DNA of 64,000 bases, taken from contig JAGHZR010000018.1 of NCBI GenBank assembly GCA_017745295.1, forward strand, positions 62,001 through 126,000, read 5' to 3'. Below are positions 18,380-27,181 of this stretch, one piece after another. The position numbers were made by a program, and so were the translations under genes. Within the stretch, counting starts at the first letter, position 1. Every line of letters starts with the position of its first letter. The notes below the pieces were generated by a model. The model made no database searches. It was not told the origin of the DNA and was given only the letters and a program-made list of their open reading frames with translations. This stretch comes from Novosphingobium sp. Its GTDB lineage: Bacteria > Pseudomonadota > Alphaproteobacteria > Sphingomonadales > Sphingomonadaceae.

Positions 18380-19225
18380 TCAGATCGGCTTCGGACCGAC
18401 CGGACCCTGAGTCCCTTCGGCCTTGCGCTCGTTGTAGAGATTGATGATCGCCGCCGCGGTTTCCTCGATGGAGCGGCGCGTCACGTCGATCACCGGCCAG
18501 GAATTGTCCGCGAACATGCGCCGCGCATATTTCAGTTCGTCCTCGACCCTGTCGCTTTTAACATAATCGGTGTCGGGCGACTGACTGAGGGAGAGCAGGC
18601 GGTTGCGGCGGATCTGGATCAGGCGCTCGGGCGCGGTGGTCAGGCCGACGACCAGCGGGCGCTTCAGCCCGAACAGCAGGGTCGGCGGCGGACTCTCGAC
18701 GACAATCGGGATATTCGCGACCTTGTACCCGCGATTGGCGAGATAGATCGAGGTCGGCGTCTTGCTGGTGCGCGAGACTCCAGCCAGCACGATATCCGCT
18801 TCCTCCCAGTCCTCCCAGGCGATCCCGTCGTCGTGGGCGATGGTGAACTGAATCGCATCGACGCGGGCGAAGTAGGCATCATCCAGACGGTGCTGGCGGC
18901 CGGGGCGACCCTTGGCTTCCTGCCCGAGCAGGGCCTCCAGCGCATCGGTGACGCCGTCGAGCACCGCGATCGCGGGCAGGCCGAGCTGCTGGCAGCGCTC
19001 TTCCAGACGGCCACGGGTTTCCTCGTTCACGAGGGTGAAGAAGACGAGTCCGGGATTGGCGGCGATCTCGCCCATGATCCGGTCGAGGTGCTGCTGGGAG
19101 CGGACCATCGGCCAGAAATGCCGCAAAACGTCGGAATCATCGAACTGGGCGAGGGCCGCCTTGGCGATCATTTCCAGCGTTTCGCCGGTGGAATCCGAGA
19201 GCAGGTGAAGGTGAAAACGCGCCAT
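18380..19225 (-). CDS. Pyruvate, water dikinase regulatory protein (PPSR/DUF299)
   Basis: [63 protein letters not shown]. Confidence 0.9.
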
Positions 19226-19586
19226 TCGAGGCTTTTCCGAGAGTCTTTCGCGTGAAGAACCCCCGAGACAACCCGGCGGCCTGTGGATATGTGGCGGCAT
19301 AAACCACGGGACAGTGCTGGTGACAACTCGCTTCCCGGTTTTGCTCCACATTGAACCGATTTCGTCGCGAGAGTCGTAAACATGATTCAAATCCGCCCCA
19401 CACCCTGTGGGTAACAGGGATAAAGAGTCTTTGACTCAGACTCTCCGGAGAGTCGCTTCGTGAATTTGAACCTGTTCGCCGTGGAATGAATCGTGCAAGA
19501 TTCAAAAGTCCCCGATATCCACAGGACCAACAGACTCCATCATCCTTCTAAGAATCTTTAATTTTTTTGATCGGACCTGAACCTCG
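19226..19586. other. oriC: Putative chromosomal replication origin region (oriC)
   Basis: Divergent PPSR/hemE intergenic region; three 8/9 DnaA-box matches (TGTGGATAT 19282-19290, TGTGGGTAA 19406-19414, ATATCCACA 19515-19523); about 10 GANTC sites in 19371-19556; AT-rich stretch CTAAGAATCTTTAATTTTTTTGATC next to hemE; flanking genes typical of alphaproteobacterial oriC. Confidence 0.72.
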
Positions 19587-20612
19587 ATGCCTGGCCTTCT
19601 TCTCGAAAACCTGCTCGGAACGAACACGAGCAAGCGTCCAGTCTGGTTGATGCGCCAGGCCGGAAGATACCTTCCCGAATATCGTGCCCTGCGCGCCGAA
19701 AAGGGCGGATTCCTGGCGCTCGTCTACGACACCGATGCAGCGGCGGAGATCACCTTGCAGCCGATCCGTCGTTTCGGATTCGACGGCGCGATCCTGTTCT
19801 CCGACATCCTGATCGTGCCTTATGCGATGGGTCAGAATCTCGAGTTTCTCGCCGGTGAAGGCCCAAAACTGACTCCGCGTCTGGTCGATTCCGCGCTGGA
19901 GAATCTCGGCGCGGTTCCCGAACGGCTGACTCCGATCTACGAAACCGTGCGCAAGGTTCGCGCCGGACTCGATTCCGACAAGACAATGCTGGGTTTTGCA
20001 GGGAGCCCCTGGACCGTCGCCACCTACATGTGTGCAGGCGAGGGCAGCCGGGATCAGCATGAGACAAGGGCGATGGCCTATCGCGACCCTTCGGCTTTCG
20101 CGGAAATCATCCAGGCTATCGTGGGGGTGACTGTCGAATATCTCAGTGGCCAGATTCAGGCCGGAGCAGAGGCTGTACAGTTGTTCGATTCATGGGCGGG
20201 GTCGCTCTCACCCGCACAGTTCGAGCAATGGGTCATCGCACCGAATGCCGCCATCGTCTCGGCAGTGAAGGCGCGCCATCCCGAGACTCCGATCATCGGC
20301 TTCCCCAAGGGATCCGGCGAGAAACTTCCCGCTTACGCCCGCGAAACCGGGGTGGACGCGGTCGGAATCGATGAAACGATCGATCCCGTCTGGGCCGCGC
20401 GCGAATTGCCCGAGGGACTCCCGGTGCAGGGGAATCTCGATCCGCTGCTGCTGCTGGCGGGTGGCGAGGAACTGGAGAGTCAGGCACTGCGCGTGCTCGA
20501 TGCCTTTGCGACCCGTCCGCATGTCTTCAATCTCGGCCACGGAATCGGTCAGTTCACGCCGATCGAGAACGTGGAGCGCCTGCTCGGAATCGTCCGCAAC
20601 TGGTCGCGCTGA
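19587..20612 (+). CDS. hemE: Uroporphyrinogen decarboxylase
   Basis: RPVWLMRQAGRYLPEYRALR..GFAGSPWTVATYM..FDSWAGSLSPAQFEQW..GNLDPLLL. Confidence 0.95.
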   Translation: MPGLLLENLLGTNTSKRPVWLMRQAGRYLPEYRALRAEKGGFLALVYDTDAAAEITLQPIRRFGFDGAILFSDILIVPYAMGQNLEFLAGEGPKLTPRLVDSALENLGAVPERLTPIYETVRKVRAGLDSDKTMLGFAGSPWTVATYMCAGEGSRDQHETRAMAYRDPSAFAEIIQAIVGVTVEYLSGQIQAGAEAVQLFDSWAGSLSPAQFEQWVIAPNAAIVSAVKARHPETPIIGFPKGSGEKLPAYARETGVDAVGIDETIDPVWAARELPEGLPVQGNLDPLLLLAGGEELESQALRVLDAFATRPHVFNLGHGIGQFTPIENVERLLGIVRNWSR

Positions 20613-20792
20613 TCCTTCCCGACACGGGGAGGGGGACCATCGGCAAGGCGGTGGCGGCGGGCAGGCAGTTCATGCAAGCTCACCGGCCAAACACCGCCAC
20701 CTTGCTGATTCAGCGCCGGAATCGGCTTGCCCCGCGCCTGCCAAGGGTGCAGGAGGGCCGCCGCTGAACCATTAGCCTAACCGTCGAGACTC

Positions 20793-21245
20793 GTGGGACC
20801 CATGCAGGAAGCGCTTTCCATGCTCTATCTCTGGCTCAAGGCCGGACATGTCATCTTCGTGATCTTCTGGATGGCCGGGCTGTTCATGCTCCCGCGCTAT
20901 TTCGTCTATCATCAGGAAGCGGAAGCCGGCTCGGCAGAGGAAGCGCGCTGGATCGACCGCGAGGCGAAGCTGCGCAAGATCATCCTGACGCCCTCACTGA
21001 TCCTTACCTGGGTCCTCGGCATCGCCACCGCGACCGCGATGGGTGCGTGGAGCGAAGGCTGGCTCCATACCAAGCTGCTCTTCGTGCTGGCGCTCTCCGG
21101 TTACCACGGCTGGCTGGTTGGCTACGGCAAGAAGCTGGCGCGCGGCGAACGCCCGCTGACCGGCAAGAAACTGCGCCTGCTGAACGAGATTCCGGGCCTT
21201 GCCGCCGTGGTGATCGTGATCCTGGTGGTCGTGAAGCCGTTCTGA
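20793..21245 (+). CDS. hemJ: HemJ/CopD-family protoporphyrinogen oxidase-like membrane protein
   Basis: LYLWLKAGHVIFVIFWMAGLFMLPRYFVYHQEAE..ILTPSLILTWVLG, HemJ pattern; adjacent to hemE; start may be 20820. Confidence 0.85.
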   Translation: MGPMQEALSMLYLWLKAGHVIFVIFWMAGLFMLPRYFVYHQEAEAGSAEEARWIDREAKLRKIILTPSLILTWVLGIATATAMGAWSEGWLHTKLLFVLALSGYHGWLVGYGKKLARGERPLTGKKLRLLNEIPGLAAVVIVILVVVKPF

Positions 21246-21254
21246 ATCCTGCCC

Positions 21255-21290
21255 GATTCATCGCTTCGGTCCGATCCGGAGCGATGAATC
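21255..21290. terminator. Inverted repeat downstream of hemJ, possible terminator
   Basis: GATTCATCGCT (21255-21265) / AGCGATGAATC (21280-21290), perfect 11-bp arms; no strong T tract. Confidence 0.45.
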
Positions 21291-21475
21291 CCGTTTCCGT
21301 TCAACCCGCAAGTCTGCCGCCTCGCGGATTGACTCGTTGACCGAAACCCGCGGAACGCTTATCTGAGCCTTGTTCCGGCACAGGGCGGCGAGCCCATTCT
21401 CCTGCCCGGATCCGCTTTCCCCAAGCCCTTAGATCCCGCCGGTCGACACTCAATTTCCATCCGGAATCCAGACAG

Positions 21476-22732
<1,257 letters not shown>

Positions 22733-25903: not shown

Positions 25904-27181
25904 ATGCCTGACACGATCTTCGCGCTCTCCAGTGGTTCTCCTCCTGCGGCCATCGGTGTCGTCCGCGTCAGCGGGCCTGCTGCCGGTATCGCGCTCACGG
26001 CGCTTTCGGGAACGCTGCCGCAGCCGCGCCGGGCGAGTTATCGCGCCTTGCGGGACGCAGACGGCGCAGTACTCGATCAGGCGCTGGTGCTGTGGTTTCC
26101 GGGACCCAATACGGCCACCGGCGAAGATCTCGCCGAATTGCATCTGCACGGGGGCAGGGCGGTCGTTGCGGCGGTCGAGACCGCGCTGCTCGGGATTGCG
26201 GGTTTGCGCCGGGCGGAACCGGGCGAGTTCACCCGCCGCTCCTTCGCCAATGGCCGGATCGACCTTGCCGAGGCGGAAGGCCTTGCCGACTTGCTCTCCG
26301 CCGAAACCGAACTCCAGCGCCGCAGCGCGCTCGCCATGGCAGGCGGGGCCTTTTCGCGTCAGGTCGAGCAATGGCGCGACCGGGTTCTTGTCGCCTCGGC
26401 AGCGGTGGAGGCGGTGCTCGATTTCGGGGACGAGGATGACGTGTCCGACCTGCCGCCGGACTTCCTCTCGCGGCTGACCGACCTTCGCGGCGAACTCCAG
26501 ACGTGGCTGTCGCGCCCGCGCGCCGAGGCACTGCGCGAGGGCTTCCGCGTGGTCCTCGCCGGGCCGCCGAATGCGGGCAAGAGCACTTTGTTCAACGCAC
26601 TGGTCGAGGACGAGGCGGCGATCACCTCTCCGCTCGCCGGGACCACGCGCGACGTTCTCACACGCGCGGTGTCGATTGGCGGCGTGCCATTCCTGTTTGG
26701 TGACACGGCAGGCCTGCGTGACGAGACGGGCGACGAGATCGAGGCCATCGGGATCTCGCGCGCTCTGGCCGAACTTGGCAAGGCCGATCTCGTGCTCTGG
26801 CTCGGGCCGGAAGGCGAAGGGCCGGACGGCGCCTGGGAAGTAGCACCGCAGGCGGACGTGTTTCACGTGGAACACAAGGCCTCGCCCCGGCACCGGATTT
26901 CCGCCGTCACCGGAACGGGCCTCGATGCCTTGCGGAAGGATCTGATCGAGACCGCTGCGGCCTCCATGCCCAAGCCGGGCGAGGCGGCGCTCAACCGCAG
27001 GCAATATGCTTTGGTGGTGGAGGCCGAACGCGCACTCGGCAGCGCCGCGGCGGAACGGGACCCTCTGCTGGTTGCCGAAGCCCTGCGTCTGGTGCGCGTC
27101 GCTTTCGATGGGCTGATCGGGCGGGCGACGACGGAGGACATGCTCGATTCCTTGTTCGGCCGGTTCTGCATCGGCAAATAA
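25904..27181 (+). CDS. mnmE: tRNA uridine-5-carboxymethylaminomethyl(34) synthesis GTPase MnmE
   Basis: DTIFALSSGSPPAAIGVVRVSGPAA..VLAGPPNAGKSTLFNALVEDEAAITSPLAGTTRDV..LLDSLFGRFCIGK. Confidence 0.96.
   Translation: MPDTIFALSSGSPPAAIGVVRVSGPAAGIALTALSGTLPQPRRASYRALRDADGAVLDQALVLWFPGPNTATGEDLAELHLHGGRAVVAAVETALLGIAGLRRAEPGEFTRRSFANGRIDLAEAEGLADLLSAETELQRRSALAMAGGAFSRQVEQWRDRVLVASAAVEAVLDFGDEDDVSDLPPDFLSRLTDLRGELQTWLSRPRAEALREGFRVVLAGPPNAGKSTLFNALVEDEAAITSPLAGTTRDVLTRAVSIGGVPFLFGDTAGLRDETGDEIEAIGISRALAELGKADLVLWLGPEGEGPDGAWEVAPQADVFHVEHKASPRHRISAVTGTGLDALRKDLIETAAASMPKPGEAALNRRQYALVVEAERALGSAAAERDPLLVAEALRLVRVAFDGLIGRATTEDMLDSLFGRFCIGK
26859..26874. promoter_or_regulatory. parS: parS-like ParB site 1 (inside mnmE)
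   Basis: TGTTTCACGTGGAACA; 15/16 to TGTTTCACGTGAAACA. Confidence 0.85.

Follow-up and report, generated by a model that had tools for sequence, protein, structure and literature searches.

The oriC of Escherichia coli carries a cluster of GATC sites, the target of Dam, together with the SeqA system, and in Caulobacter the GANTC methyltransferase CcrM acts only late in the cell cycle. The Caulobacter origin, Cori, is placed beside hemE with DnaA boxes and several GANTC motifs in the second-hand account given by PMC3973325 (citing Shaheen 2009), and the same paper reports that about 80% of cells have their origin-proximal GANTC sites in the hemimethylated state; CcrM over-expression in Caulobacter leads to extra chromosomes. 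Initiation and replication control are normal in its delta-ccrM strain (PMC3973325), whereas cell-cycle models assume full methylation of Cori as a condition for re-initiation (PMC2217572, PMC8865702). For A. tumefaciens, CcrM control of ori2/repABC has been described, with ori1 not significantly affected (PMC11514494). At a broader scale, Koppenhofer et al. 2022 (PMC9836097) describe how GANTC becomes much denser around ori in four alphaproteobacterial orders, Sphingomonadales among them, in coarse bins of 1% and with no mechanism. The occurrence of GANTC in Caulobacter-type origins, the coarse ori-proximal rise and the idea of a full-methylation requirement are already published. We likewise found GANTC enrichment near ori, and to that coarse picture we add a base-pair core, synonymous-site selection, reversal of avoidance and lineage limits; in the open-licence literature we found no description of a sphingomonad base-pair core cluster, a hemE synonymous-site extension or a local avoidance reversal.

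The window analyzed here, a stretch of 64,000 nucleotides, is part of contig C9 of a 4.84-Mb draft assembly, and its hemE is 96% identical to those of Novosphingobium lindaniclasticum and N. panipatense. A dense GANTC cluster lies between the gene for a PEP-synthase regulator and hemE, which is followed by a hemJ-like gene and rho (Table 1). Of the five DnaA-box-like sites that the window contains with up to one mismatch allowed, three lie in the cluster's intergenic region, both of the AT-richest 30-mers in the window fall in the adjoining probable unwinding element, parS-like sites occur at +7 to +10 kb, at distances similar to those in a complete relative (Sphingomonas sp. IC081, G153), and the cumulative GC-skew minimum of C9, at 84.5 kb, is 3 kb from the cluster. 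Because of this combination of hemE side, DnaA boxes, AT-rich DNA, parS and skew, the locus is very probably oriC as judged from its sequence features, which agrees with the presumptive origin of an earlier sequence-only reading. One extra parS-like near-match was seen at -57 kb on C9, and a comparison of origin-region DNA with plasmid records gave no match.

Table 1. Coordinates of the origin-region features in the window
Feature	Position	Strand	Remarks
Pyruvate phosphate dikinase / PEP synthase regulator gene	18380..19225	-	Other flank of the origin
Extended GANTC-dense domain	19241..21464	.	Intergenic region, hemE, hemJ, to start of rho
DnaA-box-like site ATATCCACA	19282..19290	-	1 mismatch to TTATCCACA
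Core GANTC cluster, ten sites	19371..19556	.	Motif positions, shuffles, conservation across relatives
DnaA-box-like site TTACCCACA	19406..19414	-	1 mismatch to TTATCCACA
GACTC-N12-GAGTC pair GACTCAGACTCTCCGGAGAGTC	19433..19454	.	Includes 16-bp palindrome 19439-19454
DnaA-box-like site ATATCCACA	19515..19523	+	1 mismatch to TTATCCACA; strongly conserved block
AT-rich probable unwinding element	19539..19571	.	Beside hemE; GANTC at 19552 on left flank
hemE (uroporphyrinogen decarboxylase)	19587..20612	+	18 GANTC
hemJ-like protoporphyrinogen oxidase gene	20793..21245	+	Within GANTC-dense domain; 129 bits, just below curated cut-off of 138
rho	21476..22732	+	Dense domain ends at its start
parS-like site TGTTTCACGTGGAACA	26859..26874	.	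+7.4 kb from origin
Further parS-like sites	27186, 29304, 29666		

Like Cori, this origin combines a position beside hemE with DnaA boxes, GANTC sites and an AT-rich element; it differs in that no CtrA box of the form TTAA-N7-TTAA occurs in the whole 64-kb window. The likeness to E. coli oriC lies in the density of sites for an orphan methyltransferase (10 GANTC in 186 bp); the mark is GANTC/CcrM here, however, SeqA is absent, and the enrichment extends into coding genes and a wide island. A GAATC site flanks the AT-rich unwinding region, an arrangement that we take to recall the GATC-starting 13-mers of E. coli. The AT-rich stretch at 19548-19571 reads GAATCTTTAATTTTTTTGATC and resembles those 13-mers (GATCTnTTnTTTT), with GANTC replacing GATC; its GANTC is kept in all eight close genomes and is missing in several more distant ones. 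With A. tumefaciens the locus shares the theme of GANTC methylation affecting a replication origin module, although the module there is the RepC-dependent ori2 and the effect runs through repC transcription (PMC11514494). The repC-type secondary replicons of relatives showed no GANTC cluster (at most 3 sites per 186 bp in ten loci), and we discarded the cluster as a feature of repC replicons.

The ten core sites start at 19371, 19384, 19425, 19433, 19439, 19450, 19488, 19499, 19533 and 19552, exactly as counted by hand in the sequence-only reading, and its four sites within 30 bp are present at 19425-19454. In 10,000 dinucleotide shuffles of the 186-bp core, the mean was 1.8 GANTC (sd 1.2, maximum 7) and none reached 10. 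When the whole window was shuffled 300 times, no 186-bp stretch held more than 9. The expectation of about one site per 300 bp fits the base composition, but the actual genome is sparser, with one per about 600-680 bp (1.68 per kb across 679 kb sampled outside the window, and 1.48 per kb on contigs other than C9). Across that 679 kb, the densest 186 bp held 5 GANTC versus 10 at the origin, and the densest 2 kb held 13 versus 36 counted from 19371. The origin cluster is thus the top peak of the window and the sample, which together cover about 15% of the 4.84-Mb genome, and the many comparable clusters named beforehand as a potential objection did not appear in the 679 kb. As an interval, 19371-19556 is a real core but was drawn too narrowly, since dense sites span about 19241 to 21464. 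The origin and its surroundings carry far more GANTC than any other sampled part of the genome.

The perfect 16-bp palindrome with GANTC at both ends is real (19439-19454). It forms part of a GACTC-N12-GAGTC pair that, among eight genomes searched, has its sole genomic copy at the hemE origin in six, a second copy elsewhere in one, and no copy in one. The pair was rejected as a family-wide signature, being present at 36 of 160 loci and hence a sub-clade feature. Among the seven closest relatives, only one (L009) keeps the palindrome GACTCTCCGGAGAGTC, while the GANTC positions persist. A conserved protein site was discarded here, as the interior is not conserved while the surrounding GANTC positions are, and the palindrome is mostly incidental.

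Three layers of enrichment can be distinguished: a core found across the family, and, both restricted to a lineage, an extension of 2 kb and an island reaching about ±70 kb. For the core, the last 250 bp before hemE at 80 hemE loci of relatives contain 20.5 GANTC per kb versus about 2 per kb elsewhere, and seven permuted control palindromes of equal composition range from 1.2 to 7.2 per kb in the same stretch. Over 160 loci, of which almost all belong to the window's family, the region upstream of hemE averages 6.1 GANTC per 420 bp (minimum 2) against a background of 0.81 (1,522 windows), and it stands 5.9-fold above a second-order Markov expectation trained on GANTC-masked intergenic DNA; relatives thus keep the cluster, the conservation that the sequence-only reading had proposed to check. 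Other families of the order mostly have no GANTC cluster upstream of hemE, and hemE may not mark the origin there; across the class the picture is mixed, with 0-6 GANTC per 400 bp. In one genome from another family of the order (G004, locus L207), the 400 bp upstream of hemE hold 10 GANTC at 41% GC along with two DnaA-box-like sites, apparently either an independent or an ancestral cluster.

The composition of the sites themselves indicates what has been kept. The N base is evenly distributed among intergenic sites (GATTC 257, GAATC 251, GACTC 233, GAGTC 230), and the flanks have no consensus. In the eight closest genomes, divergence is 0.085 for the four recognition bases, 0.149 for the N base and 0.176 for other intergenic positions, a comparison that is partly circular given that sites were picked as common to at least four of the eight. 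Across relatives, only 14% of the GANTC sites at the origin match the extended GcrA motif YGAKTCK, a depletion relative to 22% elsewhere, and none of the ten origin sites in the window does. With a neutral N base and GcrA-type flanks under-represented, selection seems to act on the methylatable site as such; this is what the sites share, and not a protein-specific sequence.

Beyond the intergenic region, hemE holds 18 further GANTC and the next kilobase 9. Synonymous-codon shuffles of this hemE gave 7.45 ± 1.92 sites, and none of 2,000 reached 18; in most relatives, hemE has only 0-4. The enrichment runs on through hemJ and ends at the start of rho, with the next GANTC after 21464 at 22268. 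Fifteen genomes have six or more hemE sites, and a HemE tree places every one of them in a single clade of 24 members (support 100/98); in the window's closest group all eight genomes are high in hemE GANTC (support 99/96). The extension is weak or absent in both a more distant Novosphingobium (G093) and a member of another genus (G037); on these sequence comparisons the 2-kb hemE-hemJ extension is specific to a lineage, not family-wide.

At the widest scale, GANTC density on C9 is highest in the bin that contains the origin (6.9 per kb), has dropped to about 3.3 by 20-30 kb and to 1.6 by +100 kb, and the ratio of density on C9 to that on other contigs is 2.12 for GANTC versus 0.87-1.04 for seven control motifs. 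In the complete relative G153, density declines from 4.0 per kb at the origin through about 3 (±20-40 kb) and about 2 (±70 kb) to around 1 past 200 kb on either side (Spearman -0.76 with distance from the origin; one control, TCNGA, also trends, at -0.62). GANTC is relatively richer between genes (1.66 per kb) than in coding sequence (1.25 per kb) and is avoided in coding sequence away from the origin, where observed counts are 0.56-0.64 of the synonymous expectation. In G153 this ratio rises from 0.56 at 120 kb or more to 1.26 at less than 50 kb from the origin, and in the window's own genome from 0.64 elsewhere to 1.54 in the window, a reversal that no control motif shows in GANTC-like form near the origin. 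The island thus reverses the genome's usual coding avoidance of GANTC (from about 0.6 to 1.2-1.5), and its weakness or absence in G093 and G037 makes it a trait of the lineage; a family-wide island was discarded on the same grounds. Two side observations concern other places and motifs. Opposite the origin of G153 (L250, G153:C1:1500001-1520000), GANTC reaches 1.95 per kb versus about 1 per kb in mid-replichore, a slight rise that is possibly a terminus effect. CTNAG is also avoided in coding genes of G153 and the window's own genome, at about 0.5-0.65 of the synonymous expectation, but unlike GANTC both near and far from the origin.

The genome encodes a CcrM ortholog, a 377-aa protein with a RAMA domain (PF18755) above cut-off and an E-value of 1e-153 against the Caulobacter CcrM structure 6pbd; the NCBIfam CcrM equivalog model matches it below the Caulobacter-level cut-off (606 versus 830 bits). 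A missing ccrM gene, raised in the sequence-only reading as a point that could speak against it, is therefore not the case here. Of 151 genomes sampled from the order, 149 have CcrM, the two without a match falling outside the window's family, so that with the enzyme nearly universal no natural loss tests cause, and this route to a causal test was dropped. GcrA is encoded as well. None of 21 genomes, this one and 20 relatives, has SeqA (PF03925), which the same search did detect in the E. coli control; SeqA was discarded accordingly. The sites, with their selection, conservation and location, and the CcrM gene are established by the present analysis.

Methylation at this locus, its timing, its reader and its effect on initiation we infer from these observations and from Caulobacter. 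After the origin fires, no DNA in the cell would be as densely hemimethylated as this stretch, and it would stay so until the action of CcrM, which on the Caulobacter analogy would come late in the cell cycle. The hemimethylated state would mark sister origins as already replicated and would change their handling by DnaA or some reader, so that re-initiation would be limited or origin processing aided. We give about an even chance to this reading, an oriC with an array of CcrM sites selected as methylatable, whose hemimethylation marks replicated sister origins and limits re-initiation or aids origin processing. The restriction of the hemE extension and the wide island to part of the family counts against it. 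A methylation-dependent origin switch is plausible but unproven. Its earlier form, an array that sequesters or recruits a factor, was not supported, given the absence of SeqA, the depletion of GcrA-type sites and the normal initiation after ccrM deletion in Caulobacter (PMC3973325). From the sequence-only reading, then, the oriC placement, the CcrM gene, the top sampled peak, the family conservation and the selection of sites as methylatable were supported, but the switch role was not.

That AT-rich intergenic DNA or codon bias alone yields the sites is exceedingly improbable: the intergenic region is indeed AT-richer (GC 0.51), but the shuffles, the permuted control motifs and the synonymous shuffles exclude composition and chance, which are refuted for the core cluster. 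We also consider it unlikely that the sites form a GcrA/promoter array, through which methylation would govern the transcription of hemE or of an RNA crossing the origin, in the manner of cell-cycle promoters in Caulobacter. The presence of GcrA, its binding to methylated GANTC (PMC7987155) and the position directly upstream of hemE fit such an array, but the scarcity of YGAKTCK at the origin and in the window's ten sites disfavors it, and a promoter would not need as many as ten sites and a density that continues across two coding regions.

A different account needs no mark at all: the counter-selection that acts on most of the genome would simply be weaker near the origin, where sites stay hemimethylated for most of the cycle. 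The coding ratio, which near the origin is about 1.2 instead of about 0.6, agrees with it, as does the finding that origin-proximal sites in Caulobacter are hemimethylated longest (PMC3973325), but the several-fold excess at the core and in hemE is left unexplained. Hemimethylated time should also fall about linearly over a 2-Mb replichore, whereas density is at baseline within about 200 kb; a linear gradient was discarded since the local island does not fit it, and this sharpness counts against relaxed avoidance as the sole cause, which we regard as improbable. Of similarly low probability is a role in organizing the origin domain, in which the island would be read not by the initiation machinery but by a factor of the nucleoid or of segregation (cohesion, origin positioning, the SMC/ParB region). 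The symmetry of the island about the origin, out to about ±70 kb, and its inclusion of the parS-like cluster speak for this, but the core is located within the DnaA-box/AT-rich region and the wide island is confined to a lineage; we know of no nucleoid or segregation reader of such an island. Strand marking for mismatch repair was also discarded, as Caulobacter mutation-rate data would by analogy argue against it.

Returning to hemimethylation as a mark of replicated origins, a fuller proposal is that sphingomonads may use a CcrM-based, SeqA-independent mark of new origins, built from a core, a lineage extension into genes and an island of ~150 kb, with a reader of hemimethylated sites that would limit re-initiation or organize sister origins. 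We hold this only tentatively and think it rather less probable than not. Against hemimethylation as such a mark, SeqA is absent and, to our knowledge, no other reader of hemimethylated GANTC at origins is known. The sharp, avoidance-reversing island argues for a local function at the origin more than for a passive consequence of when the DNA replicates. Control of chromosome initiation by GANTC methylation in alphaproteobacteria is a matter of debate between models (PMC2217572, PMC8865702) and the Caulobacter deletion (PMC3973325). The GANTC-dense origin makes methylation timing of replication directly testable here, and a lineage whose origin is packed with GANTC, even at the synonymous sites of hemE, is a natural place to settle that debate.
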